Source: Cliona cf. orientalis (lineage: Eukaryota > Porifera > Demospongiae > Clionaida > Clionaidae). From it: a stretch of DNA of 64,000 nucleotides. A model generated the notes under the pieces. It was not told the DNA's origin. It did not search any database and saw only the letters and a list, made by a program, of their open reading frames with translations. This document shows, in pieces, positions 1,702 to 61,200 of this stretch (the first letter of the stretch is position 1; every line of letters starts with the position of its first letter). The stretch lies in assembly GCA_963930775.1 (NCBI GenBank), contig OZ005697.1:8516292-8580291 (forward strand), written 5' to 3'. The position numbers and the translations under genes are program-made.

Positions 1702-3507
1702 TCAAATGCCACAATGTTCACGAGCTGGTGGTAGTAGGCACACCAGGGCTACTTCAAAATCTGAAACACATGCTCGATCAAATGTACTACAGCCTGTGAC
1801 ACCAAATCCATATGTTGCAACGAAATAACTATTGGCAAAGATACGGAAATGATTGCCAATATCAGATGCTTGTATGAATGGATGGAAGCTGCCCTCTTCA
1901 AAGGTGAAAAACTGGCAGGCTGGAGCTCTCCGCTCATGTCGATATCGATAGCACGGAATTACTCTTTCCAGATTTACAAAGAGAATGGCTGTATTGCCTC
2001 CTGAATTCCTGGAATGGTTGGGACGATAGGCCAGATTATTTGAAGTGTAATTGTCCGAAACATTGTGTATTTCCAGTGAAGATATGTAGTCCTGCACTTG
2101 TGTTGAGCTGTTGATCAAACTCAGTCTGACCGTCCTTGGGGTTCCAGTTAAAGCAATGTGCAATATTTTCACCACTGTTTAATAAAAGGCAAGATAATAA
2201 TATTATTTTGGTATGCAGCTATTATAAGCAGTAATGATACATATACATGTAATTGTGAACTTAGCCAATTAAGCCTCTTTCCATGCAGGTTTTTTAATTA
2301 ATGTCGTGTATTCAGGCTTTTAATGATGAAGTGTAATCTTCTGAAGTGTTTGGAATTGTCGGTGTGGATATGTAGTCTCCCATATGCATGGCCACCACTT
2401 GCGTTGAGGAGTCCATCGACCTCAGCTTGACTCTTCTTGGGATTCCAGTTAAAATGAATGCACTCGAGTGCAGAAATCTCACCACTACATGCATGCATGA
2501 CTCATGCGTGTGTATAGTATATGGCATATGTATGCTTGTTCAATATCAGGAGTATTGAACTACATACCCTTCACCTGCATGAATATGCATGGTTATGGTA
2601 CTGTTCAAGTCACTCCAGAGTCAATGCATAATCTAGGAGTAGGGGGAAGGCACCTGGTTATAATGTCACTATACAAACTATAAGCTTCTGTGACATACCT
2701 AAACACATGCAGACGGGCAAGAGCTGCACACTATATACTACACCACTGGGCAGGACTAGTATTAATAATATGACTATTATTCCTTTATATCTCGCATGGT
2801 ACACAACTGTTAACTGTACATTATCCTCATTTCTTGATCTTCATTATTAGCGACAATAGATTGTGCTCCTGGCAGTGAATGACAATAGCTATGATAGCTA
2901 CTTGTACATATACTTTGGATCGAAAATAGTAGAGGAGGCATCATTTTACTAAATCTATTCTGTGAGCGAATTTAGGCTCACCCCTTTGATGGTTTACATC
3001 ACCCTAGTTATATTATGTACTCTTTCCCATGCTGTTTAATGTATTTCAGCGAATGATATTGAAAAGCTGAAAGTAGCTATTATAATAGGCTTTCATTGAT
3101 TAGATAACACACTTACCTGGCTGGCCTAAAAGCTTAGAAATTGATACATCATGAGTACCAACTGTAGTTCCAACTGTTGTTATTCTCTCATCAACTGTGG
3201 CATTGAGAACACTGACTGTCGTGTTGACTGCTGCTATTTCTTCGTCAACTGTGGCATTGAGAACACTGACTGTCATGTTGACTGCTGCTATTTTATCACC
3301 GAGAGCATTAAGTGTAGCATTGATACTTTTTTCGAGTGTTGTAGTGAATTCTGCTACCATGGTACTGACTGTAGCATTGATTCTTTTGTCAATGAATTGC
3401 TTTAAGATCTCAATGTTACTGAGTGAACATTCGCTGGCATAGCTAGGTACACTAGCAATAATTATGAAGGCAACAAAGATAGACATAACTGGGATGAAGT
3501 TTGCCAT
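1702..3507 (-). CDS. Family A secreted stalk-and-head protein (two exons)
   Basis: Exon 1 is 3507-3117 and exon 2 is 2174-1702, joined by a phase-1 intron (donor GTAAGT at 3116, acceptor CAG before 2174), giving about 287 residues. Residues 1-24 form a signal peptide (MANFIPVMSIFVAFIIIASV). One cysteine in ECSLSNIEIL precedes about 100 residues of heptad-like, N-glycosylation-rich sequence with repeated NATV units, a probable coiled-coil stalk. The head (about 130-287) has N-glycosylation sites, SGGNTAILFVNLE, and six cysteines in the pattern PCY...ACQ...GCSTFDRACVSDFE...VCLLPP...C. The head matches no family I recognise. The 942-bp intron is unusually long for this family because it holds a relic second head exon (2312-2490). 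Role unknown; it should be secreted and oligomeric. Compared with its paralogues the head lacks a few residues, in frame. Confidence 0.75.
2312..2490 (-). pseudogene. Relic 5' half of a family A head exon inside the intron
   Basis: On the minus strand this segment reads VVRFLHSSAFILTGIPRRVK, then ...SSTQVV...YIS...SEDYTSSLKA and a stop. It aligns with the first third of the family A head (VVKILHIALTGTPRTVRL...). It lies between exon 1 and the intact exon 2 of the gene at 1702-3507, and a TAG precedes it at the position of the usual acceptor. It is most simply a truncated exon left by unequal exchange. If spliced in, it would give a short secreted stalk with a truncated head. Confidence 0.6.
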
Positions 3508-3589
3508 CGCAATCCACTAGTACCACAGTAACTCTTTTACTAGAAGAAAATGCATCTATCTAGTAGCTAACTGTCCACATACTTTCTAT

Positions 3590-3700
3590 AGAGAGGAATG
3601 AAACGTGGAGCTCAAAGTGAATTGGAGGATATCACCTCCTTTGAATGCAGTTTATTCAGTCATGGTTTCAAACTTTAGCAAATATTTACTTTGCTATTGT
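3590..3700 (-). promoter_or_regulatory. Conserved 5' flank of the family A gene at 1702-3507
   Basis: This block matches the flanks of the other family A genes and sits about 80-190 bp upstream of the ATG at 3507. On the minus strand it contains GCATTCAAAGGAGGTGATAT, an AAATATTTGC string and a CTATAGAGAGG string closer to the gene. No canonical TATA box position can be fixed. Confidence 0.35.
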
Positions 3701-3941
3701 TAATGATTTTTTGTGTTTGTGCATATACAGACTCTCGGAGAGAATGATAATGATGTCACCCTCTCTACCTAGCTTTGAATCAACTCTATTGGCATTATTG
3801 CACTCTAAAATTCTAAATAATATAAAGCAATCTTAAGATCTAGAGCCCTGAAGCGTTATAACAGTTAATAGTATTAGTTCATAGCGTAGCTACATTTATA
3901 TGGCTGATATACAATTTCTTTTCTACATTATTGACTAAGAG

Positions 3942-4046
3942 CTGGAGATAGCAAACAAACTAGGAAAGCGCTAAAATTCAAAATGCACGCTCTTTCAAAT
4001 GTGCTACAGCCTGACACTCCAAATCCGTATGTTGCTGTTACAGTAG
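3942..4046 (-). pseudogene. Relic 3' end of a family A head exon
   Basis: The minus strand resembles the last 35 codons of the head (region ATYGFGVTGCSTFDRACVSDFE to the C-terminal cysteine), with substitutions that destroy the frame. No first exon belongs to it; RTK1 lies to its right. It is a leftover of the tandem array. Confidence 0.55.
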
Positions 4047-4924
4047 TGATTGTACGGCCATGATTATACGCAGGTAGCTAAACTGATGGATATGTGATAT
4101 ACATTGTCATGCATAGCTATATTAATTTTAATATTTGTGAATGTCTAAATGGATGAATAGGTAACATAATATTATTATTATTATTATTGCAACTGCCTTT
4201 CGAATGAGACTATAAAATCATTTAGGTATACATAGCTATCATTCCATTTAGAACAGTATCCATTTCATCTTTTGAAGTTTTCTGTATAATGTAGCTACTG
4301 CATGTTTATGCATCCACCTATCCATTTCTGTTGCCACTTTAAAGTTGATATAGACTTTTGGCATATCTGTTACTGTAACACAAAATTTTGTTTGCCAACC
4401 GTGCATGCACAGTTTACATAATAATTATACACACAAAAGTGTCAGTGAGCAATAGTATATACATGTTGTGTGACATAAAATGTCACGTAGCAATAACGTG
4501 CAATCTCCATGATTGATCTGTGAATTTACAAAGGTTGCTATGATGACGTTGCACCATGCATGCTTGAGCGATTTGAGAAGGTTACGATTTATGATGGAAT
4601 GTCATAGTATAAGCGAATGCCCTATAGAAATTCCATCACTGAGTCCATGAACTCAAAACTCACGATTACATGAAGGAAGACATGTAAAATTTTATAATTT
4701 CATTATTCAACACAATTATGATAAGTTATGTACTTCCCCTATACGTAACTGTGTGCATGCAAGGTTATCATAAAAAATTTAATTATACACAGTCAATTAA
4801 AGTTTAATTAGCAGTAAAAATTCTACTTGCATAATAATATTATAATTATATGCATGTATAAATTGATGCTGTCAAGTTTAATAACTGAGTTGATTACTGT
4901 TGATTCAGTATTTGACTGGATTGG
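4047..4924. other. Spacer without a recognised gene
   Basis: AT-rich spacer between a family A relic and the 3' end of RTK1. It contains short ATT microsatellites near 4170-4190 and palindromic GCATGC strings. No coding potential is seen on either strand. Confidence 0.5.
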
Positions 4925-7900
4925 CTACTCTTTTCTTGTTATTAAATTTTGTTGATTGTTGAAAGCACTGACATAGAGATAGTCGGTCATGCTTTGGAGG
5001 TCTTTGCCGATACTCTGCACCAGTTCTGAGAATCCTGGGCGGAGCTTAGGGTCCTCTTCCCAACAGCTGTTCATCATGGCGTACCTGTATATCAATGTAT
5101 AGCTACAATGTCATTAATAATAGCAGCAGAGCAATAAAAAAGACACTGTATGGTTTACTAAAATTAATGTAAATTTTGGTTAGCTGAACATACATTTTGT
5201 CGCTACACGCAGTGTTTTCTGGTTTGTAGAGCCTCAGGCCATTGCTGAGTTCCCTAGCCAGAGCCATTGGGTGTACTCCTGGGTAGGGAACTGTGCCAGC
5301 AGTGAAGATTTCCCAACAGGTCACTCCATAAGACCACTATTATTATGATATTATAGATATCTGAATCAGTGTAACAGTTGCGGGGATAAGAATATAATTA
5401 TTTTCCATACCACATCGGACTTTTCAGAGAAAATTCCCTCCAGAAGGCTCTCTGGAGCTGTCCATTTCACTGGGAGTTTTGCAGTAGTCAGTGGTATGGC
5501 ATTGTTATTTTTAACCCCTCTGTCTTCAAGATTGGTCAATGTCTCTGACAGTCCAAAGTCAGCTACTTTGATGATCCAATGTTCATCAATCCTGTTATGA
5601 CAGGCAGTGCATGTACAAGATTTAGTAATGGTATGAAGAGTAACATTAGCATACGACTTCTAATTAAATCTTTGATATAACGTTGTGCTGACCTAGATCT
5701 ATAATATCTATCACAATTAATACTGCTTACATGCAATTTCTTGCAGCCAGATCTCTGTGAATGAGCTTCATATTGGTAAGATACTCCATTCCTTTAGCAA
5801 TCTGTAAGCACATATCCATGAGCTTTTTTTGAGCTACACAAGCCTTGAACAAGAAGGTAAAATTGATAAACGAAGAGTGAAGCTTTAAGCTCTGATTAAT
5901 CCCTAACCAACCATTTCATCATCTGTGTTGGCATTAGTGACAAGAATTTCTCTGTTGTTCTTGACATACGAAAGGAGACTTCCATTTTCCATAAAAGGCA
6001 AAATGATGTAAGGGGAGGGGCCAGCATCGAGACATAATCCAATTAAGGAAATAATGTTTGGATGATCAAGTCTGTGCATTAATACACACTCCCTAATCAA
6101 GGTTTGGGTATCTTCATCGGTAAAAGAACCTGAATATATTATATTCATGCATGCATAAGGTGATTTAATTCAATATTATATCGTTCAAGTGTATGTCTCA
6201 ATCTATAATAATATAAATCATGCAATTGCCATTAACCATAATATTATCTTCCCATGCATAATAACTTTTTGATGAGCAGCTTAGGGATAGCTACATTTAT
6301 TTTGAAAGGATGCATGCCTACTGTAACAGCCATAGCTACATACCTTTCAGTGTCTTGACAGCAACCTTTGTACTTGATTCAACGTGATAGTGTGTTTTTA
6401 CTATTGGCTTTTGCAGTTTGGCTTGATAAACCTGATTACGTTCTCCTGCATGCATGTATATATACAAGTCATAGATTTCTGTATGATGAATGCTGTTTTT
6501 GTATACAATAATATTATGTTTACCTTCTCCAATGATATCCATGAGCTGTATATCCATTTTGCATATAATCAATCTGTTAATGTTACCCTCTAGATAGGTA
6601 TTGAATTTTGTTGTAGTGGATACACCTTCTACACTGTACTGTAATGCTGACTCAGATATTTTGCTAGCTTTATTGCTGCATGCAAGCAAAACTTACGATT
6701 ATTCCTTTCATAATAGTCTTGATACCAAGTAATAATAATATTATATTGTACCTCAATATGAACTGATCAACAAGGTCTTTATTCCTTATCAATATGCGGG
6801 AACGATATTTCTTTCTTTGTCGTTGACCACAATACCACAACACCGCAAGTGCACCTACTAGTAGTATGAGAGCTAGTATTCCACCTGCTGCAGCTCCTCC
6901 CAGTTTAGCTCTTCCTGGCCCTTTTGAATTAGCTGAACATAAATAAGACAAGCACATTGATGTATTATGATGAGTTATTCATCCTTGTGCAGCATAAAAT
7001 TGTGTTGGGGAGTGGGTGGGGAGAGACGGTTGCCACTAAAATTTAATTATGTCGGGGTGTAGCTACAGCTATTTCATGGAATGCCATAACTATAGTGATA
7101 CTAAGTATTAGCAACTGGTATAATATTATTATCACAGGTGCAAGGGATCTGATCTATATGATATATTATTGCATTCAGCCCTTGGGCGCTTTAGTTTATG
7201 TAAAAAGGATAATAATCTAGTTTATCTGACTATTTAACAGCTGTAATTTTAATGAAAAATTTTGAGTAATTATCTCTTCAAATTTTATAGACTATATCTA
7301 TCATACATGTACACATACCACCGGTACCACTCAAAACAGTGATTTTCTTATTATGAGCTGAAGCAGATAACTTTCCATTGGTCAGTCTAGTAGCGCACGA
7401 ATATAGCCCCTCGTCCTCCAACAGGATGTTTTCAATCCTTAATATGGACTCTGTAAAGGTGTCTTGCTTTTGTTCACAGATTGTATACTGGAAAAAAACC
7501 CCCAGTAAATACGCACTGATGCTATGGGATTAACAAAATGAAAAATTGCAAGTTGTAACCTATTAAAAAGTAACCGTATCATTGCTGATTCAGTAGGCAC
7601 TAGCCATGATGAGTTAATATGATTATTATTAGGGGAATGACTCAAGAGAAATATTCAAACCTATATAGCTATATAGATCTATGTATACATACTCAGCTAT
7701 ATAGTAGATCAAGCCTCAGTTTACTGTGCATGAGTATAAAACTATTTCATGAGGTGAGCTATATGGCTATAGTAGCTAATAGTATACTATAGCTATAATT
7801 GCAATCTCGTAGCTATATACATGTATAACACAACAATTATTATTACCCGCGGATTGTAGACAGTGTTGTTAATAATTGCAGTCTTTCCATTGGTAATCCA

Positions 7901-9025: not shown

Positions 9026-9652
9026 ATGGCTGCTACTACTATGATTTTATTTGCTGTCTTCATTGCTATCGTCCATGGCGATAGTACCTGCAAAATTGCT
9101 CCTTGCAAGTGTTCGTTCAGTAATGTTGAAATCTTAAGCAAATACATCGACGAAAGAATCAATGCTACAGTTGCTTCCAGGGTAGCGGAGCTAACTGCAG
9201 CTACAGAAGATAGATTCAATGCCACAATCGATGAAAGAATTGCAACGGCCATAAATACCACCGTCAGTGCTATTAGTTCTGAGTCAGCAATGTGGACACC
9301 CGTGGCTAAGACTGCTATTAGTCCAGGAGGACTTACTCTCGAAAATGCAACTACTTTTACCTTTCAAATCCCCGATATCATTCCCCTTGCAGCAAGGGAA
9401 TTTATGGTCTATGCCGTAGTGAAATGTGGAACCGCTCATCAAAGAACTGGTGATATCATATTTTATGTGATGCACCATGGATTGCGATTTGAAAAGTTTC
9501 TATACATGCACTCATATAATCAGGCAGCTTGGAACACCAACTCAGACAACATGTGGTTCCCAATGCCTGCTGATAGACTCTTGCACGTGGAGATAACCGT
9601 GGCCATCACCGGAAACTGCAGTACTCTCTTCTTTACTACTGGATACCGTTGA
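9026..9652 (+). CDS. Secreted stalk-and-head protein with head B, intronless
   Basis: One uninterrupted frame encodes about 208 residues from MAATTMILFAVF; an in-frame upstream ATG at 8963 would bury the signal peptide, so 9026 is preferred. After the signal peptide come CKIAPCKCSFSNVEIL and a stalk with repeated DERINAT units, the same stalk type as family A. The head starts at MWTPV and continues with FQIPDIIP...EFMVYA...CG...DIIFYV...RFEKFL, then [12 protein letters not shown] and a C-terminal GYR. The same head occurs in the genes at 59406-60044, 58099-58611 and 56813-57335, which all have an intron where this gene has none. The head is not one I can name. It should be secreted and oligomeric through its stalk. 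Confidence 0.75.
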   Translation: MAATTMILFAVFIAIVHGDSTCKIAPCKCSFSNVEILSKYIDERINATVASRVAELTAATEDRFNATIDERIATAINTTVSAISSESAMWTPVAKTAISPGGLTLENATTFTFQIPDIIPLAAREFMVYAVVKCGTAHQRTGDIIFYVMHHGLRFEKFLYMHSYNQAAWNTNSDNMWFPMPADRLLHVEITVAITGNCSTLFFTTGYR

Positions 9653-10059
9653 CTCATTTGAGAATTGCCATTGAATACTGTAACAGCTACCAATTTGAAC
9701 CTGAACAATGTCTATTCATTGCTAATACTGCATAATATTATAATTTTTACACTTGCTTAATTAATTTGTATATGTTTACATGAATAATGGCTTAGCTTGA
9801 TGATTAATATAATATATTTTTATTCACATTGCATTCCCCATGTGCATGCACCTTATTTAGCTGCCACTATCACGGCATGATCATATAATATAGTTACTGT
9901 AGCTTATACATACAATTGTGTTTTAGCAACATCATCAAAAGTAAAATACCATCATGCATGTATATAAGAGCTCTGAAGAATGCTACAATTAATTTTGTAC
10001 TGTTGCAGAGCTAGGTACGTTATGCATGGCAGATGCACAATCTGAGACTCTCTCATCCC
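9653..10059. other. 3' flank and spacer
   Basis: AT-rich sequence downstream of the intronless gene. No genomic poly-A tract marks a processed retrocopy. Nothing coding is seen. Confidence 0.4.
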
Positions 10060-10335: not shown

Positions 10336-10559
10336 CAGTACAATTTTTTGCACCTGTCAGTGTGCGTGTATAGACTCTCATGATCAGAGAGAACGATAAT
10401 GACATCACCCTCTAGCTTTCTATATCATAGATATATTAATTTCATAATTTTTTGCACTCTAAAATTCTAATACATAAATGAGAATTCTGATTCAGAAATG
10501 TTACAACATTAATTTAACAGTTACTGATGCATAGCACATTAGCTCTTATCGCATAAATT

Positions 10560-11699
10560 TCAGATAGATCTATCACATTGATTAAGAGCTGGAGGTAGCA
10601 GACATACCAGGAAAGCTTTAAAATCTGAAACACATGTACGATCAAATGTGCTACAGCCTGACACTCCAAATCCATATGTTGCTGGAATGGATTACGGTCG
10701 AATCACTTAAGGTCGAATCATAGCGCGTGTGTGTCTCTCTCGGCCACCGTATGTTGCTATCTGCTCCAGGTGGATACCAAAGATTTTCAAGTGGCTACCA
10801 TCATCAGATGATTGGATGAATGCGTTTCCATACTGGAAGGTCCCCCCATCATAGGTGAACAGCTGGCAGGCTGGACCAATCTCATTACCTCGATAGCATG
10901 GAATGGCAGCTTCTAGATTGACAAAGACAATGGCTGTGTTACCACCTGCATTCCAGTAGCTGTCATAATAGGGACGATAGGCCAGAATGTCATCATCCGA
11001 AGTGTACTCCATTGAAGTGTTTTGAATTGTCAATGTAGACATGTAGCCCCCCAGTGCTTGTGTAGAGGAGTTGACTGATCTTAGAGAGATTTTTCTTGGG
11101 GTTTCAAGCAAAGAGATGTACAGTATCTCCATTACTGTTTACATGACATTGTAATAATTTAAAACATATTATTGGTACAGTATTATAGCTATGATTTTGA
11201 TGAATGAGATCCATTCTGCATGCATACAATGCAATGCAGCGTAGCTACATATAAATGGCCTCTTCTCCCAGGCTTTTTAATGTATTTCAATGTGCAATAT
11301 TGAAGCTTAGAGTGGACTTGGGGATGATACAGTATAATTATGGCTACTATGTATTTAGACTCACCTGGTTGGCTTAAGAGCTTAGCAATTGATATGTTAA
11401 GACCAGATACAACTGTTGATATTTTATCGTCAATTGTGGCATTGAGAGCACTGACTGTGGTATTAGCTCCACTTATTCTAGCATCAATGGTGGCAACTTT
11501 TTTTCTCGAGTGCAGTGTTGAATTCTTCTGATGCTATAAATTCCTCCAGCCTAGCAGCAATGGTAGCGTTAATTCTTGCATCAATGAGATCACTTAAGAC
11601 TTCAACATTGCTAAGCGAGCACTGATCATTATCGGAGGCATTGCTGCAGGTAATGAAGACTGCAAGGAATGTCACAATAGTTGGAATAACACTGGCCAT
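10560..11699 (-). pseudogene. Family A gene with insertion and frameshift
   Basis: Exon 1 is 11699-11365 (MASVIPTIVTFLAVFITCS..., one cysteine, stalk) and exon 2 is 11134-10560. Two lesions are visible. A run of seven T (plus strand 11498-11504) gives one extra base relative to the frame that restores EKKVATIDAR. In the head, a 66-bp insertion flanked by 9-bp repeats (10675-10758) brings an in-frame stop before the conserved GFGVSGCSTFDR segment. The rest of the head matches the intact copies. The homopolymer shift alone could be a sequencing error; the insertion cannot. Confidence 0.7.
10675..10758. mobile_element. 66-bp insertion with 9-bp target-site duplication
   Basis: The string TATGTTGCT occurs at 10675-10683 and again at 10750-10758, bracketing 66 bp absent from all paralogues. 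The insert carries two near-identical GGTCGAATCA units (an internal direct repeat). It interrupts the head exon of a family A pseudogene. It is too short to classify. Confidence 0.5.
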
Positions 11700-15400: not shown

Positions 15401-17836
15401 AGATAAGTCGGAGGAAAACATTAGAGAGCTATTTGTGCACAAAACACATATAACAATCATGGATATTATTGGAGAAGGTACATTGTCAAGTACCGCAGTA
15501 TACTCTGTCAGCCATAGTAATCTTAAGCTTGCAAAATAGGGTGTTAAAGTACTATGAGGTAATTCCCCTTTTCTCAATAAGCTCCATATTGGCCTGCATG
15601 ACACTGGTTTATGGCTACACTCACTGCACTGTTTACCTCGCACCACTTCCTGTATATGCCTTGTATAAGGTTCAGTGCACTGCCCATAGGCCCTCTATAC
15701 ATTACAGCTATCTATAGTAGAGCCTTTATGAGATAATTATGATCATAATTATACCTTATTTTTTTCCCACTGCATATTGATTAAACTTAAATTTTATAAT
15801 TATGATAACACACACCCACACATCTAATATAGGAGAGTTTAGTCATGTTTATGAGGGTAAAGTAACAAAAAATACATCTATCATCAAGGTTGCTATCAAA
15901 ACACTAAAAGGTATAATAATATATAATATGAATTATAGATAATAGCTACTAGAATTGTATCTGTGACATTTTATTTCAGCACTGCACAGTATAACCAACA
16001 CTTTCTTGAGTGCCACATACATGACATTGCATGTTCATTAGTATTCTGGCCTTTAAGTGCACTTGAATAAATTAGTGTTTGAAAGGCTATTATTATAAAT
16101 TGTCATATCATATATAATTATAGCTATACCTGTTCCTGCAATCATGAAAATACTGGTTTGATATTAGGTTCCTTTAATGATGATGATATTCAAGATTTAA
16201 TCAAGGAGAGTGTATTGATGTACAAGCTTGACCACCATAATGTCCTTTCCTTAATTGGATTGTGTCTTGATGCTGGCCCCTCCCCTTACATCATTTTACC
16301 TTTTATGGAAAATGGAAGTCTACGTTCGTACATCAAGAGCAACAAAACCAGACTTTACACCAACATTGAAACAGAAGATGAAGAGGTAATTATATAGATT
16401 AGAAACTAAACCTATATGGCCTAAATAATTTTCAATTTTGAATATTAATTATCTCACTGGCGAAAATTCAACTTTAAAGTCTATACGGCAAAATTAAAGG
16501 TGTTAGTTATTCTATTGTTTTTATTTTTTTAAGGTGTGCATAGCACGGAAGCAGCTCATGGACATATGCTTACAGATCGCTAGAGGAATGGAGTATCTTG
16601 CCAATATGAAGCTCATTCACAGAGATCTGGCTGCAAGAAATTGCATGTAAGCAGCTAATACTGCATGCATAGAATCTGATCTACTTATAAGTTAGCTATT
16701 TACTATTATTATTAATTTACAGGATTGATGAAAACTGGGTCATCAAGGTAGCTGATTTCGGGCTCTCAGAGATAATGAAGACCTCTAAAGACTACTTCCG
16801 ACAAAATCAAGACAACAATGTTAAGCTTCCAGTCAAGTGGATGGCTCCAGAAAGCCTGCAAGGCTTGATATTCTCTGAGAAATCTGATGTGGTATACTTG
16901 TAACTATAGGCTAAATGGACGTATCTGTCCTTCATAGCAAATAAAATTAATATAGCTATAGTTAAAGCTCCATCTATAGAAAATCATGTTTTATTACTGT
17001 ATGGTTTGTTGCTACAGGCAGAAGTTTATAATTATATCTCTATAGGATCTAAAGCTTTATATACAATGTTATGTTAAATGCAATACCTAGATGCAATTTA
17101 GAAGATTTCAGGGCTAACCCTTAAGTGGGATTACAATTAATTGTATGATAGAGCCCATCTATCAGTCTTCTAAAATCAAAACCTCTCAATAATTTATCAT
17201 AATAGAGCAATCACAATTCAATTTCTTTCTATAGTGGTCTTATGGAGTGACCTGCTGGGAGATTTTCAGTGCTGGTAGGACTCCCTACCCAGGAATACAC
17301 CACCCAATGTCCCTGGCAAGGGAACTCATGAATGGCCGGAGACTTGACAGGCCAGGCAATACCGCATGTGATGACAACATGTACGCATACTATAGCTACA
17401 TCATCTGTATATTGACAACTGAATACAAATGCATGCTTGTAATACACTATAAAAGTCTTGATAAAAGTGACTCAGTAGATACTAGCTCATAGGTCCCAAC
17501 TTCATCAATCCTAAATGCTGGTCATCTACTAGCATAGTCTATCGAGCTAGACCCTTCCCTGCGCTTGTAGCTATTGTGCGCATACAATACAAGCGCAAGG
17601 AAGGGTCTAGCTCGATAGACTACTACTAGCAGTATACCCATGGATACGCATGATTGATTCAAGTGGCAAAATTTATCTAATTTGCCGCTGAAAATAGGGG
17701 AAATTGTGCTACTTGTAGGTACGTCATGATGAAGAGGTGCTGGGAACAGGACCCTAAGCTCCGCCCAGGATTCTCAGAACTGGTGCAGAGTATCGATAAA
17801 GACCTCCAAGACATGACCGACTATATCTTCATTTAA
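12496..17836 (+). CDS. RTK2: single-Ig receptor tyrosine kinase
   Basis: Eleven exons: 12496-12571, 12658-12833, 13753-13921, 14806-15004, 15329-15477, 15833-15910, 16168-16385, 16534-16646, 16723-16891, 17235-17380, 17719-17836; 537 codons in frame. Exon 1 gives a signal peptide ([19 protein letters not shown]). Exons 2-3 encode one Ig domain (KLRCVAYG...IEWTS...DDTGVYSC). Exon 4 has the transmembrane helix followed by [10 protein letters not shown]. The kinase shows [23 protein letters not shown] (helix C Glu), [14 protein letters not shown], a KDYFRQ activation-loop tyrosine, PVKWMAPES and [12 protein letters not shown]. Exon order and phases equal those of RTK1. The third glycine of the glycine loop is replaced by Ser. 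Intron 2 contains a MITE (12856-13216) and intron 10 a long hairpin (17535-17622). Probable plasma-membrane receptor; ligand unknown. Confidence 0.87.
12856..13216. mobile_element. MITE-like element in RTK2 intron 2
   Basis: The ends are inverted repeats of about 21 bp: AGCCCCATTTACACATAGGG at the left and, in reverse complement, AGCCCCGTTTACACTAGGCC at the right. Inside are many GTGTAAAC and TTAATCCGGATTAA motifs in both orientations. Similar motifs continue to about 13345. No open frame. Superfamily undetermined. Confidence 0.6.
17535..17622. repeat. 35-bp stem hairpin in RTK2 intron 10
   Basis: Arms 17535-17569 and 17588-17622 are reverse complements over 35 bp with one G/T-type mismatch, around an 18-base loop. 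The arm includes the string TATCGAGCTAGACCCTTCC. Either a fold-back element or the stem of a small-RNA precursor. Confidence 0.65.
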
Positions 17837-20220: not shown

Positions 20221-21194
20221 ATATAGTAACAAAGCATCTGAAGAAATGGAAACTTTGGATGCTATGAACAATAATATTATAAAGAAGCATTGGGGGGCGA
20301 TAGCAATAGAGATGACAGAGAAATCAGAGGCAAAAATTAAAGAATTAGTTATACGACAAACAGACATACAAGTCATGAATATTATTGGAGAAGGTACACC
20401 TAGGAAATTAATTTTAATTACATGCAGGTCCTTCCATAATTAATAGTGTACTTGAATTGTTGATTTGAATATTACTATGATCATAGCTATACTCGTAATA
20501 AAAATTTATGCAGAATTCAGTCATGTCTATGAGGGAAAGTTACAGAAGGAAGTAGTAGTGGAAAGAGCACACATTTCTGTCACAAAATCAGGGCCTGTTA
20601 GCGTGATGAAGAGAGAGATTGTAAAGTAAAATATCAAGTTGCCATCAAATTACTGAAAGGTATATAAAACTTATGGAACGAAGGAGAGCTTTATAATAAT
20701 ACTGTAACTAAAATCTCTTCGGATCCATGCTTTGAATAGAAGAAAAAAAAGAATACACATAATATCTTATAGCTATACAGTAACTGTCATAAAATTTACA
20801 GTGTGCATATGCATATTATGTTGAAATGCTTGCAGGTTCTTTCACCAAAGATGATACTGAAGACTTAATCAGGGAAAGCGTATTGATGTATAAATTTGAC
20901 CACCCAAATGTCATCTCTTTAATTGGATTATGTCTCAATACTGCCCCCTCTCCTTACATCATTTTGCCATTTATGGAAAATGGTAGTCTCCTTTCGTATA
21001 TCAAGAATAGCAGAGCCACGCTTTACACCAATTCTGACACAGAAGATGAGATTGTTAGTGAAAGCTTTATAGTATATGGTAACCTTTCTTAGCTATTATG
21101 GTAACCACCCATGCATACAATAGCAGCTACTTACGGGTGGATCAGAGCCTACTTTGGACTGAATACAAAAGAAATTTTGGAGAGCTTTTACAAA

Positions 21195-23339: not shown

Positions 23340-23747
23340 AAATTCAGACTCCAAATCCATATGTTGCAATGTTCTGAGAACTGCTGAAGATGCGGAAATG
23401 ATTGCCAATATCAGATGCTTGGATGAATGCCTTTCCAAATCAGAAGTTGTCCTCTTCAAAGGTAAACAACTGGCAGGCTGGCTGGATCCTATTACCTTGG
23501 CAGCACGGAATGGCAGCTTCCAGATATTGATGAAGACAATTAATGGCTATATTGCCTCCTGAATGGCTGGAGTAATTGGGACGATAGGCCAGAACACTAT
23601 TGTCGGAAGTGTAATCTTCTGAAATGTTTTGAATTGTCAGTATAGATATTACGTCCCCCACCGCTTGTGTTGAGGAGTCTATCGATCTCACCCTGACTGT
23701 TCTTGGCTCGGTTCCACTTACACTAATGTACAGCATTTTTATCACTG
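23340..23747 (-). pseudogene. Family A head exon pseudogene
   Basis: The minus strand encodes VIKMLYISVSG...SSTQAVGD...SEDYTS...LAYRPNYSSHSGGN, then a local indel in the INLE region, a TGA in place of the glutamine of the SFQFGK motif, and an end at ATYGFGV with the C-terminal cysteine segment missing. No first exon is found upstream. Confidence 0.7.
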
Positions 23748-24361: not shown

Positions 24362-25407
24362 TCAAAGGCCACATTGATTAAGAGCTGGTGGTAGCAGGCA
24401 CACCACAAATACTTCAAAATCTGAAACACATGCTCGATCAAATGTACTACAGCCTGTGACTCCAAATCCATATGTTACTATGGAATGATTGTTGCTAAAG
24501 ATATTGTTTCCGACATCGGATGCTTGGATGAAGGCCTTTCCAAACTGGAAGCTGTCCTCTTCATGTGTGATTAACTGGCAGATTGGACCAATCTGATTAT
24601 ATCGATAGCATGGAAATATAGTTTCCAGATTGATAAAGATAATGGCTGTATTGCCTCCTGAATGGCTGGAGTAATTGGGACGATAGGCCAGAACATTTGA
24701 AGTATAATTGTCTGAAACGTTGTAAATTTGCAGTGAAGATATGTAGTCCTGCACAGCTAGAGTTGAGATATTGACTGACCTCAGCCAGATTTCTCTTGGG
24801 GCTTCAAAGCCAGTAGCAATGTATGCTATTTTCATCACTGTAACCAGTTTAAAAGGAAAGTCTTAGATTATTACAGTATATAGCTACGTATAATATTATT
24901 ATTATGATAATTAATGCAGCATAGCGTAGTTGCAAACATAGCCACTTTAAATGTATTTCAGTGAACCAATGTTACAAAGCTGAAAGTAGCTACTGTAACA
25001 GGCCTTTTTTTAATATGGAGATGAGCATATGTTAACATACCTGGTTGGCTTAAAAGCTTAGAAATTGATACATCGTGAACATCAGCTGTAGCACTGATTG
25101 CTGTCATTCTTTCATCAACTGTGGCACTGAGAGCACTGACTGTGGAATTAACTGTTGCTATCTTAGTATCAACTGTGTCACTGAGAGTATTAAGTATAGT
25201 ATTGACAGTGGTGGCTATACTTCTTTCAAGTGTTGTAGTGAATTCTGCTACCAAGGTACTGAACGTAACATTGATTCTTTCGTCAATCAATTGGCTTAAG
25301 ACTTCAATGTTACTGAGTATACACTCATCAGCGCTGGCATAACTAGGTTCATTAGCAATAATTATGAAGGCAACAAGGATAGACATAACTGGGATGAAGT
25401 TTGCCAT
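24362..25407 (-). CDS. Family A secreted stalk-and-head protein (two exons)
   Basis: Exon 1 is 25407-25041 and exon 2 is 24837-24362, phase-1 intron of 203 bp, giving 280 residues. A signal peptide (MANFIPVMSILVAFIIIANE) is followed by ECILSNIEVLSQLIDERINV, a stalk with N-x-T/S units, and a head with SGGNTAIIFINLE and six cysteines ending NQCGL. All splice signals are canonical and there is no internal stop. The head has several glycosylation sites (NVSDNYTS). Function unknown; the start codon matches its paralogues. Confidence 0.78.
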
Positions 25408-26347: not shown

Positions 26348-27330
26348 TCAGATGCCACATTGATCAAGAGCTGGTGGTAGCAGGCACACCAGAGCTACTT
26401 CAAAATCTGATACACACGCTTGGTCAAACGTACTACAGCCTGTGACTCCAAATCCGTATGTTGCAATGGCATAAACATAATGATCGCTAAAGATAACAAA
26501 ATGATTGCCGAGATCAGATGCTTGTATGAATGGCTGTCCAAACTGGAAGCTGCCCTCTTCAAAAGTGAATAACTGGCAGGCTGGAGCTACATGATTGTAT
26601 TGATAGCACAGAATTACTCTTTCCAGATTGACAAAGAGAATGGCTGTATTGCCTCCTGCATGGCTGGAATGGTTGGGACGATAGGCCAGATCAACTGAAG
26701 TATAACTGTCCGAAACATTGTGAATTTCCAGTGAAGATATGTAGTCCTGCACAACTTGTGTTGAGCTGTTGATCAAACTCAGTCTAACCGTCCTTGGGGT
26801 TCCAGTTAAAGCAATGTGCAATATTTTCACCACTGTTTAATAAAAGGCATTGATACTATGCAGCTATAATGATTATAAGTAAGAATGATACATAATAATT
26901 ATTATTAAAAAGCTGAAAGTAGCTACAGGCCTTCATGGAGATGAGGGTCCAATATAATAATATACTTAGTAATACCTGGTTGGCTTAAAAGATTAGAAAT
27001 TGTTGCACCATGAGCACCAACTGTAGCTCCAACTGTTGCTATTCTTTCATCAATTGCAGCTGAGTCAGACTCAACTCTTGATATTTTATCATCAACTGTG
27101 GCACTAAAAGCATTAAGTGTAGCATTGACACTTGCAGCTATACTTTTTTCAATCGTTGCTGTGAATTCTGCTATCAAGGCATTGACTGTAGCATTGATTC
27201 TTTCGTCGATGAATTGGCTTAAGATTTCAATGTTACTGAGTGTACACTCACTGGCATAACAGCGTACATTAGCAATAACTATGAAGACAGCAAAGAGAGT
27301 CACAGCTGGAATGAAGTTTGCCATTGTCAT
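26348..27330 (-). CDS. Family A secreted stalk-and-head protein (two exons)
   Basis: Exon 1 is 27330-26976 and exon 2 is 26832-26348, phase-1 intron of 143 bp, 279 residues if translation starts at MTMANF (a second in-frame ATG at 27324 is equally possible). Signal peptide, CTLSNIEILSQFIDERINAT, then a stalk with AASVNATLNAFSATVDD-type repeats. The head is VVKILHIALTG...SHAGGNTAILFVNLE...ACQLFTFEEGSFQFGQ...GCSTFDQACVSDFEVALVC...DQCGI. It is very close to the copy at 28251-29298, indicating recent duplication. Unknown function; should be secreted. Confidence 0.78.
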
Positions 27331-28250: not shown

Positions 28251-29298
28251 TCAGATGCCACATCGGTCATGAGCTGGTGGTAGCAGGCACACCAGGGCTG
28301 CTTCAAAATCTGATACACACGCTCGATCAAATGTATTGCAGCCTGTGACTCCAAATCCGTATGTTGCAATATTCTGAGAACTGCTGAAGATGCGAAAATG
28401 ATTTCCAATATCAGATGCTTGGATGAATGCCTTTCCAAATTGAAAGCTGTTCTCTTCAAAGGTAAACAATTGGCAGGCTGAACCCATCAGATTCTGATTA
28501 TGTTGATAGCATGGAATTACAGTTTCCAGATTGACAAAGAGAATGGCTGTATTGCCTCCTGAATGGCTGGAGTAATTGGGACGATAGGCCAGATCATTTG
28601 AAGTATAACTGTCCGAAACATTGTGAATTTCCAGTGAAGATATGTAGTCCTGCACAACTTGTGTTGAGCTGTTGATCAGACTCAGTCTAACCGTCCTTGG
28701 GGTTCCAGTTAAAGCAATGTGCAATATTTTCACCACTGTTTAATAAAAGGCAAGATAATAATAATAAGATAAATGGTACAGCTAATAGTATAATAATATA
28801 TTATAAGCAGTAACGATACATAATTACTGCGAACTCAGCTAAGCCTCTTTCCTATGCAGGCTTTTAACGTATTCAGTGTTAAAAAGCAGAAAGTAGCTAC
28901 AGGCCTTCATGAAGATGAGGATTCAACATAATAGTAATACCTGGTTGGCTTAAAAGATTAGAAATTGATGCACCATGAGCACCAACTGTAGTTCCAATTG
29001 TTGCTATTCTTTCATCCATTGTGGCTGAGTCAGGCTCAGCAACTCTTGATATTTTATCTTTAATTGTGGCACTAAAAGTATCAAGTGTAGCATCAACACT
29101 TGCCGCTATATTATTTTCAAGTGTTGCAGTGAACTCTGCTACCAAGGTACTGACTGTAGCATTGATTCTTTTATCAATGAATCGGCTTAAGATTTCAATA
29201 TTACTGAGTGTACACTCACTGGCATAACAGCGTACATTAGCAATAACTATGAAGACAGCAAAGAGAGTCACAGCTTGAATGAAATTTGCCATTGTCAT
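28251..29298 (-). CDS. Family A secreted stalk-and-head protein (two exons)
   Basis: Exon 1 is 29298-28941 and exon 2 is 28735-28251, phase-1 intron of 205 bp, 280 residues. The signal peptide region (MTMANFIQAVTLFAVF) is nearly identical to the neighbouring copy. The stalk has ASVDATLDTFSATIKDKI-type heptads. The head has SGGNTAILFVNLETVIPCY, QLFTFEENSFQFGKAF, TGCNTFDRACVSDFE and a final CGI. No disabling change is seen. Secreted, probably oligomeric, function unknown. Confidence 0.78.
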
Positions 29299-52268: not shown

Positions 52269-55200
52269 ACCTCTCTCCCTCCCTCCATGTACACACCGTT
52301 CTTGAAGTGGCAATTCCTCCTGCCAGTGACGTTAGATGCTGGTCCAGTTCATTGCGATGCTTCACCAGTAGCTTATACACACTGTCAGCTCTCTCCAGCA
52401 GCGAGTTGATGCTCGATAAAGTCTAAAGAAGAGAGAGATGTACATTTAGCACAAGTATCAACTTCATATTAATTTGTAGTATAACAAGCGATAGGGCTGG
52501 TTGGTAATACAGAAATCCTCAGATTCACAGCACTTTGAGCAATTAAGTATACTATTTTAGCCCATGCAGTATTAATACTTTTAACATAGCATCCAAAAAT
52601 TTTAACAGTCGCCATTTTTTGCCAACAAACCTTGGCTCTGTCATCCTCGCTCTCGATGGGGTCAACAGCCGAGCAAGACCTGGCCTCGAGGAACGTGTCA
52701 AACTTGGCGTACTTGCTGAACCCGCAAGAGTTGCAGAGGAAGGGATCCTTCTCGTCATAGTTGATGGCTCGACACTTGTGGCACTGGTAGACGTTCTCCC
52801 CGCATGTCCCGCACACCCCAGGGTGGGGAGGGACAGAAGCCTGGCACCGCGGACACTGGAGAACCTCCGAACTTCCCTGGAGAGAGGTCGGCAGTAAAAA
52901 AAATTGAAGTTTGCATATTATAGTGTTTGCTTTACCAGAGCTTAGAATACTGAACAAAATACATATTATAGTAGTGACTGTTGGCCTAAGGTACATTACA
53001 AGTGTAGAATCGTAATAAGCCACCATATTATGACTATATTCACTGAAGTTATGTACCTGGAGGTTGTCATAGAAATCAGCAAATTCAATGATGACATTAC
53101 TAGCCACAATCGGAAGAGGAAAGTCAATCTAAGCAGAGGAGAAAATATAATATTAAAATTTTTTAACCGAGGGACAAAATCAATTTTAATAGTTCAGATA
53201 CGTACCTTGATTTCAGTCTGGCCTGCTGTCAGTGAGCAGCTCCTAGCTGTCAGCCAGGTGTTGCGCCTACATGTACAATGTACGTCAAAGAAAAATATCA
53301 GATAGCAATAAAATTATAGGGACCATGGTTGACAGAGTCTGACGTACTTATTCTTGAGTTCAATGACATTCTGCACTGTTCTGTTGCTATAGAACACATT
53401 GACGGTTCGCACCTACGTGTACGTACAAAGTAAGCAGTTATATCAGATAGTCCTTTGAAATCACAATTACAAGTGTCTACTGTACCATTTTAGTTCTCTT
53501 GATGTCTGAGATTCGAAGAATAACTTGCGAGATGTTGTGAGAGCCAACCAGCTTGACCAGGATCATGTTGGGGGTATAGCGGATCTCAGACTTAACTGAC
53601 TGAAGCTTCATCATCTGGAAAGGATCAGCACGTATATACATGTACATGTATATATTCTTAATCTTTCTCTGTACTGTACAACACGCAATAATCTTGAACT
53701 ACCACAGTGTCTCAGGGAAGCGCCCATTCCCAGCTAAGCTAGTGTCCATGTAGAAGGGAGACAATGGACCAGTTTCCACACAACATGCAATATACATGTG
53801 TACATACATCCCGGGGTAAACGCCATTGTGGGCTGAAATTGAGGGTTATGTTACACCCATGGGCACTTACTGTACATATATATACATGTACATGTACCTG
53901 GGAAATTATGGTATATACTAACTGACTCACAGAGTAAGGTACTTCAGGATCGTTGCAGACAAGGCAGGGCTCACTCTCGAGGTAGAATCCCTCAAAGTCG
54001 ACCAGACCCTGGAGCTGGGAGTAGACGTGGGAGTTGGGGTGATGAGCTATCACCTCATTCTGACGCTTCAGCAGAGAAATAGCTCTCTCCACGTACGATT
54101 CACAGAGGGACTCCTGTAATGAGGATACCAAGTAATGATGTTCAAATCTGGGATCCACACAATATACTAACTTTAGTCTACTTTGGGACCAAACTGCAAA
54201 ATTTAATTATGTTGGTTATATGGTAGCTTCATATCCTCCATTCTTAGCGTTTTTGCCCGTGAATGAGATTTGAAAATACTGCTCAGATTAATGGTGCTCA
54301 GCAATTTGGGTATAGACTTTTTAGTCTTCACAGGAAACGATTCAGGCAAGGAAATACTCATCATTGCACCATAAAGATAACATCATACTCTATTTTCTCA
54401 CTACTTATAACCCCTAGCATAAGCTAGAGAAAGAGGAGAGAGCAAAGACAGAGAGAAAGAGAGAGAGGGGGGGAAGAGGAATGCACCTTTTCCAACACTT
54501 GAGGCGTGCTGATAGTCATAAAGCCGAGGAGGTCCACAAACTGAGTAGCCTTCTGTCCATAGGTAGGCACACTCGGCCAAAGCTTCCACAACTGATCAAT
54601 GAGCTGAACCTGCTCCCCTGACTGGCTATACTGGTAGAGCGTGTACAACAGTTTGTGAGCTTGCCAGCGTAGGGAACTGGAGTTGGACTGAAGCAGGAAA
54701 AGCTGGATGAACTGGTTTAGGGTCTTTTCGTCCACAAATGATAGGAACATCTGGACAAGAGCTGTGCACACTTCTTTGTTAGGCTCGGCTGTGCACGATA
54801 AGAGAGAGAGAGAGAGACAGAGGGGGGGGAGGTGAAAGAAAAAGAGCGAGAGTGAGGAGAAAATATGAAGAGAAGAGAGACAAGATAACATGAAAACTGA
54901 CAAAATTCTTTTAATAGCTATTGTTGATATCTCACCAGATTTGGCCTTCTCTTTCCCTTCCTTTGCCTTTTGTTCTTTCTTAGCCTTCTCCTCCTCCTTG
55001 GCGGCTCCTCCCTTCTTCTTGTGACCAGCCAACACTGCTGCTATCACTGCATCCTTACTCTCCGGCTTGGCAGCTGGGATGCCAGAGAGAGCCGTGTGGA
55101 TCAGCTGGAGAAGCAGCGACACAAGACCTTGGTCCAGCACAAAGCAGGCTTGCAGCAAGTAGGGAAGAGTATCTACAAGCAGCATAAAATAATCACATAT

Positions 55201-58200
55201 ATTATACCAGTTCTAAAATTCACTAAGCCATACAATGTAATATCCAAGTATAATACTATCCAGTACTGTTACGAAATTTTATTGCAACCTTACATAAAAA
55301 TATTCAATGTGTTATGAGAGGCTGGTAAAATAATCTAACATATTATTGTTTGCATTTTTCAAGCTTTTACTCTAAGATATACACACACATAATAATATGC
55401 TATTTTCTCTCCATTACTTTTCTCAGTATGGCAGAAAGTCTGCCAGTTGCTAGTCCTAGAGGAGGCAATCTCATCACAAGCCTTCAGCTGATCGATCAGT
55501 CTCAGCGTCATCTTGTAGTCGAGGTGCACAGGCATCCTGGTGGGGTTCTCGGGGTCAATCTGGCAAATATTCGTGATAGCCTTCATGTGGTTCCTCAGAG
55601 CATGCATGTCCCGTGTGAGACGGTACTCCTCCTTCGAGCCACAAATGTGTAGCAAGAGCTGATGTATGTGTGTGTACGTGTATGTATGTAATTGCATTGT
55701 CGGTGGAGCACATGCAAGTCACATGATCTAGTGAATACAATGGAGCAATTAACATAAATGTACCTTTCTGACATGCCTTCTACCAATGCCACTGGTCTGA
55801 GCAACATTTAGCATGAACTGCATGGACGTTTTGACGTAAAAATAATATTTGTTCATTTTCTTTGTATATGATTATGTTAAACTATTGCTCTTACATTACA
55901 GAGTGTATCGATCCACTCCGGTCCAAATTCAGGGCTCGGTAGATACTTAGTCGTTTCACTGGTCTTCTTTAGCTGTAGACACACACACAGGCAAAAATTA
56001 ACAGAATATCCAGATTCAGCTCAGGAGCGCATAATGAGCCAGAATGAATCGTGCAGAGTATACAACTGTAGGAGTGACAGTTATACTTGCTTACCTGGCA
56101 TGGGAGAACAAGTAGCAGCTCGGCCAATAACTGCCCATAGGCCGCAAAGATATCTGTACTATGACCTTTGATGTACTGCCGTTGGAAGAATGGGCTGAGG
56201 TCGTCAAGAGGGTTGATGAACTGACTGTCCGATGCGGGCTCCTACGATTAACAATTAATCATGAGTTAATAAGCAGAATTACTAATTGATTGGACCAACC
56301 AAAAGAAATTATACTACCAAATTGGACTGTACTTATTCTAATTGAACGCATGATAAAATATAATGCAAAGAAATTACCATTACCCAATTCTCAATGTATG
56401 GAGCGACTGACGATCTTCACCGGAAAAACGTGCATTTTTCATTAAGTACGGTCACTCATCAACATTTCCAAGTCCCAAATTCATTGTATTCTAATGTAAT
56501 GTTTACCGATTTGCTACCCATAGCTACGTAAGAAGTCACATAATGAACTCAGAACAAGTGGCACATTTAATATATAACATGAATGATCCTTACATTAACC
56601 CATATTTCACAGAGCTGCTTATCCAGTAGCACTGTACCCTTGAGGTTAGTTTTTGCAAGTAATTGACAGCACACAATAACAATTATGCATACATTATCAT
56701 TATTATACGTAGTAAAGAGCTGTAAAAATCTGAGCTAAAAAATCTTTAATTTCTATACTGTTACATATTAGAGTCAAACTGCACACAGCTGTATTGACGC
56801 ATTATAGCAAAATTAGCAGTAGCCAATCGCATGGAACCTAAACCAAGCATAACCAGGAACTCCCTCTGGAACCAGAACATAGACGAGCTTATTGGAAGGC
56901 ACAGGGAACCACATATTGTCACTATTGATGCTGAAGGCCACCTGCTCGTGCCCTATGACAAAAAGGTGTTGGGCGAGTCGCTTCTCATCAACGTACACAA
57001 ATACTGACACATCCATGAATACTGATGGACTGTAAGTATTTCCACTGAAGACCGTGGCATAGATCAAGAACTGGGTGGCAGTGTCTGGAACTAGGTTCGC
57101 AATGCTGAACTGATAGAGCCCTGGGCGATTCAAACTTTCTCTTCCAATAACATTATTTTTGTCAATAGGCATCCAAACTACAAAAAAAAGTGGAGGTGTT
57201 CGTCAAAAATCATAAATACATGTATTTTTGGCTTCATGTGTAAGACTATCTTACGTATCTACCTGAACAGCAGTTAGCAGAGGTGAAAGTCAGCAGTCCA
57301 AGTAAGGTCAGTGCTGCAAGAGCAACTTTCATCATGGTGAAGGTATAAGCTTTTCTTATTGATATGTAGGTTATATCTGCATTCACTTGCTACTCCTATG
57401 CAGTTTCTGGGCCCGTTTTATACCATATGGTTTTGCTTATTTGTGCGCACAGTTTTTGGAACCGTTACACATGCAAAAATCATAGGATGGGTAGGAATAA
57501 AACAATCAATGCACTGTACATTTAAAATCTGTTCTACAGTACATGTACGTGATCAAGTCCTTGTGAAAATTTGTTGTACTGAACTCCAAACAGATCAAGA
57601 AGAGTGTTGTTTACATGAAGCCTTGCTTTGTCAAATTTCACACGCCCAAAACACTTAAAAGTTGCAGACGTGACAGCATATGGGGACAGAAAATCTTCCA
57701 AAGAAATAAGACCTTCAAACAATAACAGATAAGAAACTGCAACTAGTGACAAACCACCAAGTGTAATAAAACACCTCCTTCGTCTAGCAAATTCTGAGCT
57801 AACACTGCTTCCATGTCAATTCCGTCCATACACCAGTATTTACTAGTTGATTGTTGACAATATAACACACTACAGAGATCTGACCCATATATCATTTTAA
57901 TATTACTGCAGATCGTTTTGATGGTCGGAAATTTATCGTCAAATTACATAATGCTTTATTAAGACCAGTGCATGAGCCATAATACTATTATTGTTAGAAT
58001 TCATAATTGAATAGTTAAATGTTGATTTATTTCTATACTGTTATACATTAGTGTCAAATTGCACCCAGCTGTATCAAAGTATATGTATTATAGCAAAGTC
58101 AGCAGTAGCCAATCGCATGAAGTATAAATCCAGCAAAACCAGGCACTCCCACTGGAACCTGGACATAGACGAGCTTATTGGAAGGAACTGGGAACCACAT

Positions 58201-61200
58201 ATTGTCAGTATTGCTGCTGTATGCCTCCTGCTGGTACCCTGTAACGTAAAGGTGCTGGGCAAGTCGCTTGTCATCGACATACACGAACACCGACACATCT
58301 ATGAATATCGTTGGACCGTAGGTATTTCCACTGTAGACCGTAGCATAGATCAAGAACTGGGTGGCAGTGTCTGGGACTATGTTCGCAATGCTGAACTGAT
58401 ATAGCTCTGGGTGATTTAACTTTGCACTTCCAATATGTTTGTCAATAGGCATCCAAACTATAAAAAAAGTGGTGGTGGTGTTCGTCAAAAATCATAAATA
58501 TTTTTGGCTTCGTGTGTAAGATTATCTTACGTATCTACCTGAACAGCAGTTAGCAGAGGTTAAAGTCAGCAGCCCAAGTAAGGTCAGTGCTGCAAGAGCA
58601 ACTTTCATCATGGTGGAGGTATAAGCTTTTCTTATTGATATGTAGGTTGTATCTGCATTCACTTGCTGCTCCTATGCTCAGTTTCTGGGCCCGTTTTATA
58701 CCATACGGTTTTGCTTATTTGTATGCACAGTTTTATATATGCAAAAATCATAGGATGGGTAGGCATAAAACAATCACTGCACTGTACATTTAAAATCTGT
58801 TCTACAGTACATGTTGTGATGTACGTGATCAAGTCCTTGTGAAAATTTGTTGTACTGAACTCCAAACAGATCATCCAATAGATGTTGTTTACATGAAGCC
58901 TTGCTTTGTCAAATTTCACACGCCCAAAACACTTAAAGTTGCAGATTTGACAGCATATGGGGACAGAAAATCTTCCAAAAGAAATAAGACCTTCAAACAA
59001 TAACAGAGATAAGAAACTGTCTCCATCTCACAGGGGATCATCCACCCACTCATGGAGTCAGTGGGTGTGGTCAAGGTGGGCACAGTTGTGATATAATAGC
59101 CATATTACTACGCTGAAAATTGAATTCCACATTATTACGCATAGTATTATGTACCTCATTGCACAATGTTCACATAATATAGATGGTTATCATGCCGAGA
59201 TCTTCAGGTACGGTGATTCACAAAATATATTATTGCATCTTTCTTTCTCATACAAGCAGTGCTATAGTCAAAAGGTAATAAATTGCACATGATGTACTTC
59301 TACAATACACACTACTGTATATGAAAGTATTATATTATTGCAACTATCACTAAGTTAGTACAACTGGGGAGCACATAATATTCAGTTCAAGGAAGTAGTC
59401 ACAAATCAACGATATCCAATCGCATGCAGGCGAGAAGAACAATTTGGAATAGTAACTGGCACAACATCCACGTGGATCTGCCTGTCAGCAGGCATCGGGA
59501 ACCACATGTTGTCAGAGTTGGTGTTCCAAGCACTCTGATGATAACTATGTACACGTAGGAACTTTTCAAATCTTATACCACCATGCTCCACATAGAATAT
59601 GATATTATCAGATATATCATTAACACTAGTTCCACAATCCATTGAGGCATAGAGCAGAAACTCGCTCGCAGAGTTGGGAATGATGTCAGGAATTTGAAAG
59701 TGAAAGGTGGTACCAGGGGTAAAATTTGCTTGTCCTATTTCAGTCCTATTCACTGGTGTCCAAGTAGCTGAATAGAGAACATAAGACCTAATTATCAACT
59801 CTTGGTAACACACACAAACAAGCATAACTGTACCAAAGTGATTCTGAAGACTGTTAACAATATCATCACGCATCCCAACGAGGAGAGTATCGTTGACAAT
59901 CCTCTCAACTAGTTCAGTGAGAACTTGGATATTGCTGAACTGACAGTTGCAGGCACGACAATTCTCACCGTACACAGAGCCAATGGAAAATAGAGCAGCG
60001 AGCAGCAGTAAGCAAATCATTGTCAATCTAGCCAGGATTATCAATGACTGTGCACTCTATCTAAGCAGTTCATATACGTATATAGCCATTAGATGGGATG
60101 GAAATCTCCAAATTCCTGTCATTTTTAACAGTGTGTAGTCATGAGCATATTCACAACATGGGGGGGGGGGGGGGGGGGTAATCCACTAGGAATAACTTGT
60201 TTGTCCCTGCATAAACTGTCCTACGGACTTCATATACCAATGGGATCGGAGGCTCATACATGTACTTCTTACCCTCGTAATAAGACTTGAAGATATTGTG
60301 TCATGATGTAACATGTAATAGTTTGTTAATAAGGTGGCACACCCAATATTGTGGTTTAGAATATAGTTGTAACAAATATTGTGATCTGATTGGTCACTCA
60401 GAGGTCTCTATTTCTCATAGAGACCTACATGTTTTTATAGACTTTGGTAGCAGTTACCATAGCAACCGGCCATTTATAGTTATATTATTCATTTATTTTC
60501 ACCCCTGAATTGTCCCTTTCTTTTTAGCTGTTCAGCCTGAATATCTTTCAGGTTATCATCAAGTCCACCCAGAAGGTGACTGGTTCACTCAGGAGCTGCT
60601 AAAGGTGAAGAACCTTGCCCATCAAATACAGTACAGTATCAATCTTGACAATATTTAAATATGTAGGTAAGTATTTATATACATAGCTCCTAGACGTTGG
60701 CATTACTCGTATACACATCTTATGCATACACAGTACAGAATATTACAATAATATTATGGTAGCTCCCCCTTTCGTGCTTTAACAGCTACTTACGTCAACT
60801 GCTTCAACACTGCGTGGCTTGTCAACGATGGCACAGAGAGTCCTCCGACAGAACAGCATGACCTGGGACTCCCTCAGCAGAGTTCGAGCTGTCAGGAACC
60901 ACAGCATATCTGAAGCCTGAGACGACTGAAAGAAGATGAAAACCTCCATAAAATGCACATTCATATGTATATCACTACCATATGACATTACACACAGTAA
61001 TTGCTAACAAAATAGGACAAGCAATTGTGGAAAAATAATCTTTCTACAGTCTTAAACTCAATTCCTGAAAAAATGCCCCAATCTATATTTCCTAACATAA
61101 ATTCTACACCTGTCCTTGTACCTATGAATTCCTACCAGAGAGGTTTCTCTACCAGTCACCCCACTACTAACCTTGGCCTCCTCTCCCTTTCCTTTCTTCC

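Follow-up and report, generated by a model that had tools for sequence, protein, structure and literature searches.

A 64,000-nucleotide stretch of the genome of the sponge Cliona cf. orientalis (GenBank assembly GCA_963930775.1, contig OZ005697.1, positions 8,516,292 to 8,580,291; hereafter the window, part of contig C9 in a genome of 217 Mb) carries genes for secreted proteins that belong to a large modular family. Throughout the genome, a phase-1 junction connects the single stalk type of this family with one of at least three heads. The anatomy of this family is nearly certain. A signal peptide comes first in the stalk exon, accompanied by a cluster of cysteines (often CxxCxC-x2-NN) and a short segment of helix-like character. 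An earlier sequence-only reading of the window had named eight genes, proposing that one secreted stalk is joined to different heads by a phase-1 intron; all eight are present in our gene models, and the arrangement both holds and extends to the wider set of heads, with a stalk tree that needs more than one exchange. Its coordinates were correct in general, apart from a small intron missed at 59406-60044 and one start that is not ATG.

The window genes carrying head A (A1 to A6) and head B (B1 to B4) are given below by window position. For A1 to A4, stalk exons derive from gene models and head A exons from gene models together with the head A alignment.

1702..2174, minus strand: gene A1 exon 2, head A
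3117..3507, minus strand: gene A1 exon 1, signal peptide and stalk
9026..9652, plus strand: gene B1, signal peptide, stalk and head B in a single uninterrupted frame
10560..11699, minus strand: A5, decayed stalk-head A copy with both exons interrupted
23440..23744, minus strand: A6, broken head A exon
24362..24837, minus strand: gene A2 exon 2, head A
25041..25407, minus strand: gene A2 exon 1, signal peptide and stalk
26348..26832, minus strand: gene A3 exon 2, head A
26976..27324, minus strand: gene A3 exon 1, signal peptide and stalk
28251..28735, minus strand: gene A4 exon 2, head A
28941..29292, minus strand: gene A4 exon 1, signal peptide and stalk
56813..57177, minus strand: gene B3 exon 2, head B
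57263..57335, minus strand: gene B3 exon 1, signal peptide only
58099..58457, minus strand: gene B4 exon 2, head B
58539..58611, minus strand: gene B4 exon 1, signal peptide only
59406..59767, minus strand: gene B2 probable exon 2, head B
59834..60020, minus strand: gene B2 probable exon 1, signal peptide and short stalk

As had been proposed for the four intact head A copies, the exons of A1 to A4 are open and split in phase 1 at the stalk-head border in all four gene models; A3 and A4 have earlier in-frame ATG codons as alternative starts at 27330 and 29298. The gene models likewise agree with the description of 56813-57335 and 58099-58611 as head B genes without a stalk, the layout in B3 and B4 being signal peptide, phase-1 intron and head B. 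In contrast, 59406-60044 had been taken for an uninterrupted gene, whereas B2 most likely contains an in-frame phase-1 intron of 66 nucleotides (59833-59768), with read-through as the alternative. The splice-site scorer preferred a 48-nucleotide variant of this intron with the same acceptor and phase, and the first ATG of B2 lies at 60020.

Similarity between the stalks of head A and head B genes, a central element of the sequence-only reading, persisted in genome searches and in a direct comparison of stalks: the B1 protein matched head A stalks in the genome with a best E value of 3.1e-9, and the stalks of A3 and B1 are identical at 35 of 78 positions. A 57-residue stalk query returned 84 matches genome-wide. 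A head counted as the partner of a stalk if it shared the strand and lay up to 2.5 kb further downstream, or if both shared one frame. The partner was head C in 43 cases, head A in 24 and head B in five, and 12 stalks were unpaired, whereas opposite-strand neighbours gave five pairs and stalks shifted by 10-100 kb with random strand gave a mean of 2.19 and a maximum of 7 over 200 trials. The pairing drew on the 150 listed of 151 head C rows and, with stalk-only rows left out, on 68 of 82 head A rows and 21 of 39 head B rows; one of these head B rows is a broken copy and another has an E value of 0.13. The commonest partner was thus head C (43/72 pairs), which is absent from the earlier reading and was first noticed at loci of the stalk search; the 72 pairs are not a gene count because some stalks share one head, such as two on C4 near 4143280. 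Five of the 12 unpaired stalks were inspected, revealing head A remnants at L072, L074, L075 and L077 and no recognisable head at L083. On the reverse strand of L083 (1456-2100), the headless stalk exon is followed by an open frame that resembles a Death-type domain by eye and is perhaps a separate gene.

Intron phases were mapped with a simple splice-site scorer across the genomic pairs whose stalk motif is readable. The best frame-compatible intron was phase 1 in 15 of 18 pairs with head A, 3 of 5 with head B and 11 of 13 with head C. Both head B exceptions (L001 and L002) are uninterrupted genes on which the script forced a phase-0 pair. Of the other exceptions, L074 and L075 have a stop in the stalk, L087 and L089 are poor fits, and at L058 a phase-1 pair scored lower. 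We infer that recombination in the common phase-1 intron would place different heads on the same secreted stalk.

The phylogeny of the stalks also points to repeated exchange. The tree comprised 36 stalks over 67 columns (L082, L003 and L042 were left out as they gave no motif match, and other stalk loci were not entered) and required 7 changes of head type, compared with a minimum possible of 2 and a mean of 15.2 after shuffling. A single group of head B stalks was rejected (p-AU 0.011, or 0.015 without the long row B2), as was a single group of head A stalks (p-AU 0.009, or 0.0009 without B2). The stalk of the intronless gene B1 is placed beside head A stalks from the gene cluster in which B1 itself lies, with support of 100/96, and local exchange of stalk and head around B1 is therefore likely. 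The deep forks of this tree are unsure because of the 67 columns and the long rows.

Although the earlier reading could assign neither head to a known family, head B is almost certainly homologous, as judged from sequence and predicted fold, to the fibre-tip domain of Bd2133, while head A indeed matches no family. The Bd2133 tip is the end domain of a fibre made by the predatory bacterium Bdellovibrio and belonging to the mosaic adhesive trimers (MAT; PDB 8OK3 and 8OND); in its 2024 description, it is presented as a previously uncharacterized fold, and the relatives named there are all bacterial (PMC10769870). Head B matched this tip at E values of 3.9e-8 and 6.1e-4 by sequence and 7e-13 by profile, and its predicted fold agrees with the beta-sandwich of 8OK3; C1q and TNF entries reached TM scores of about 0.5-0.6 against the head B model, below Bd2133, and no Pfam family matched head B. 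W999 is present in 9 of 10 animal rows, and the strand G989-W999, the trimer strand in Bd2133, is the ninth most conserved of 112 windows. Head B occupies about 20 places of the genome (21 rows used for pairing). The head is C-terminal on a stalk or fibre, although B3 and B4 are stalk-less. On C2 and elsewhere on C9, it terminates short uninterrupted secreted proteins. A third kind of head B protein (L006-L009, L011 and L012) is likewise short, uninterrupted and secreted; it contains a helix flanked by cysteines as well as a proline/threonine linker.

Head B is rare among bacteria. A pattern search with one motif, which did not recover Bdellovibrio Bd2133 itself, yielded 5 confirmed cases among 33 bacterial stretches; in the phyla to which the Bacteriovoracaceae and Bacteroidetes loci belong, the domain was found in 3 of 290 and 1 of 296 genomes, respectively, starting genomes included. 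None of three pattern stretches in viral contigs was confirmed, and none was found in phages. The bacterial heads close frames of 1109 (fibre-like), 476, 384, 250 and 270 residues, the last two seemingly membrane-anchored and helix-rich by eye. In the head B tree, 11 animal and 6 bacterial rows fall on two sides of one branch (97/97). This topology is compatible with one origin in the animal; neither transfer nor its direction follows from it.

Four tandem frames on C13 also carry a C-terminal head B (L015 at 883-1944 and 2024-3214, L017 at 601-1782 and L023 from 892). All four have a RING finger over the cut-off and a match to a TRAF-type zinc finger, the latter over its cut-off in one of them, and a helix-rich linker precedes the head; the C-terminus of a C13 frame matched Bd2133 at E 0.0026. 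While these features resemble TRAF-type RING ligases, no MATH family was matched at E up to 0.01 and head B occupies the place of the MATH domain, so the C13 genes are not complete TRAFs.

Head C, with 151 matches in the genome, possesses ten cysteines that are invariant in all nine aligned rows. Its motif, which we take to be that of the short-chain collagen C4 domain, was set beside spongin by description and not by aligned sequence. Spongins are matrix proteins related to collagen IV, and the published description gives their NC1 domain seven cysteines in common with collagen IV and three of its own (PMC5395295). The match to this published description strongly suggests that head C is a spongin-type collagen NC1-like domain. 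Gly-X-Y repeats, as expected of a spongin short-chain collagen, appear to precede at least ten head C copies in the same open frame, as judged by equal reported frame length and adjacency. This comparison covered 28 of 149 collagen rows, chosen near head C, and 13 of 150 head C rows for which frame lengths were entered; because scoring covered the best 150 of 1692 collagen candidates, ten is a lower bound. In contrast, the stalk genes have a short stalk and a phase-1 intron in place of collagen repeats, and they are not collagens because the stalk exons read lack Gly-X-Y. The stand-alone NC1 genes of ctenophores similarly provide secreted NC1-type domains without a collagen tail, but there the collagen IV NC1 stands alone, whereas here a spongin-type head sits on a common stalk exon (PMC5395295). 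Separately, C1:5751209-5764153 holds collagen repeats followed by matches to the collagen IV C4 domain and is likely a collagen IV gene, at odds with the statement in PMC5395295 that demosponges are without collagen IV.

The core of head A, aligned across 17 copies, includes LAYRP, PC, EED and several cysteines. Searches of Pfam, PDB sequences and the viral and phage collections returned no family, match or relative for head A. Profile comparison detected no similarity of head A to head C, and hhalign gave a probability of 0.1% for heads A and B, consistent with the earlier view of these two as unrelated. Directly before head A, a dermatopontin domain (PF14704) was observed at L053 (521-2007) and at L055 and L056 (542-2010), both tested cases reaching E 1e-37 or better; L055 and L056, on C1 and C3, are nearly identical copies on different contigs.

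Other genes lie among the copies. Tyrosine-kinase-type exons of several receptor-like genes occur among the head A copies (5366-5659, 16083-16397, 20793-21092, 30510-30875 and 31282-31653), and a UBR4-like domain lies at 52469-53128. By eye, a large minus-strand part of the right side of the window resembles a single UBR4-type gene.

Taken as a whole, these modular, secreted proteins are on balance probably trimeric, serving multivalent adhesion or recognition with heads exchanged via the phase-1 intron. The small N-terminal exon supplies the signal peptide, cysteine cluster and short helix-like stalk, and the phase-1 intron links it to head A (predicted all-beta), head B (the Bd2133 tip) or head C (spongin-type NC1-like). 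The stalk would tie three chains together, probably via N-terminal disulphides, and the resulting trimer would display three head copies that may bind surfaces or other such proteins multivalently, with heads exchanged at the common intron. Trimerisation appears quite likely by analogy, since trimeric fibres are capped by the relatives both of head B (Bd2133) and of head C (collagens); the role in recognition or adhesion is a more tentative assignment, somewhat short of even.

Several observations weigh against this interpretation. Heptad-type periodicity was clear for one of six window stalks (A1, 5 of 500 shuffles, with 58 to 437 of 500 for the other five), so a canonical coiled coil is not claimed, and the multimeric character proposed from the sequence draws on the relatives of the heads. 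Many stalks are just 25-40 residues long, and head C stalks as one group were not rejected (p-AU 0.34). The predicted head A model (all-beta, pLDDT 65, pTM 0.66) is too weak for naming a fold. In the Bd2133 peptide pocket, Y985 is kept in 7 of 10 animal rows, but N956 and N1020 are kept in just 2 and 4, respectively, and a ligand for head B is therefore not predicted.

The main competitor is a structural role, in which collagen-free relatives of spongin build or cross-link matrix or skeleton and the heads are network-forming caps like collagen NC1. The prevalence of head C among stalk partners, its occurrence in collagen-like frames, the kinship of spongins to collagen IV as matrix proteins (PMC5395295) and the dermatopontin-like frames directly before some head A copies all speak for it. 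We nonetheless consider it rather unlikely, as the searches made found no matrix relative for heads A and B, and tandem clusters with divergent heads are equally compatible with recognition. Kinase-domain exons, recognised in 5 of the 8 frames tested in the window, are interspersed with the copies and raise the idea that the stalk proteins are ligands of the receptor tyrosine kinases encoded among them; this argument is one of neighbourhood within the window, clusters on C2, C4, C5, C11 and C16 lying outside that check, and we judge it improbable.

Two further explanations would undermine the modular arrangement itself. Convergence of a signal peptide and low-complexity helix, instead of a shuffled exon, could be suspected given the shortness of the stalk and the weakness of the deep forks, but a head A stalk shares 60 and 56% identity with the head B stalks L063 and L064 and 41-55% with the head C stalks L071-L090. 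Together with the intron phase common to the head types and the placement of the B1 stalk in its own cluster, these identities make convergence highly improbable. Bacterial contamination of the assembly comes to mind since the other head B relatives found are bacterial, yet it is disfavoured to the point of being negligible because head B genes contain introns; moreover, head B resides on a 9.9 Mb contig amid kinase and UBR4-like exons, and animal and bacterial copies separate on a single well-supported branch.

Returning to the modular, trimeric interpretation, the family may be likened to MAT fibres. Head B and the Bd2133 tip are alike in sequence, predicted fold and C-terminal place on an elongated stalk, and the varied tips on one fibre kind, described in PMC10769870, parallel the varied heads on one stalk. 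In contrast to these fibres, the sponge stalk is short, cysteine-rich and helix-like, the window genes contain no beta-helix fibre domain, and the tip pocket residues of Bd2133 are mostly altered in sponge head B. The family may thus work like a MAT but is not one, because no long beta-helical trimeric fibre precedes the tip. We tentatively propose, at rather less than even likelihood, an animal counterpart of bacterial MATs in which a trimerising stalk exon captured at least three trimer heads via a phase-1 intron, and in which head B, otherwise scattered in bacteria, would be used twice: as an extracellular adhesin-type head and as an intracellular MATH substitute in RING ligases. Swapped-tip fibres (MAT), spongin NC1 and phase-1 shuffling are already known counterparts. 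No description of the stalk, head A or a eukaryotic Bd2133-type domain was found in the searches made of open-licence PubMed Central literature, in keeping with the earlier view of an undescribed family.

Overall, the Bd2133 tip domain gains a eukaryotic branch, with about 20 places in one genome, and the family makes exon shuffling easy to read in an early-branching animal, with one stalk, three heads and a single intron phase. The RING proteins with head B would provide a test case for an adhesin-type trimer cap acting as a signalling trimer. Should microbes or self markers prove to be what the heads bind, the family would illustrate a way in which recognition diversified without adaptive immunity in such animals.
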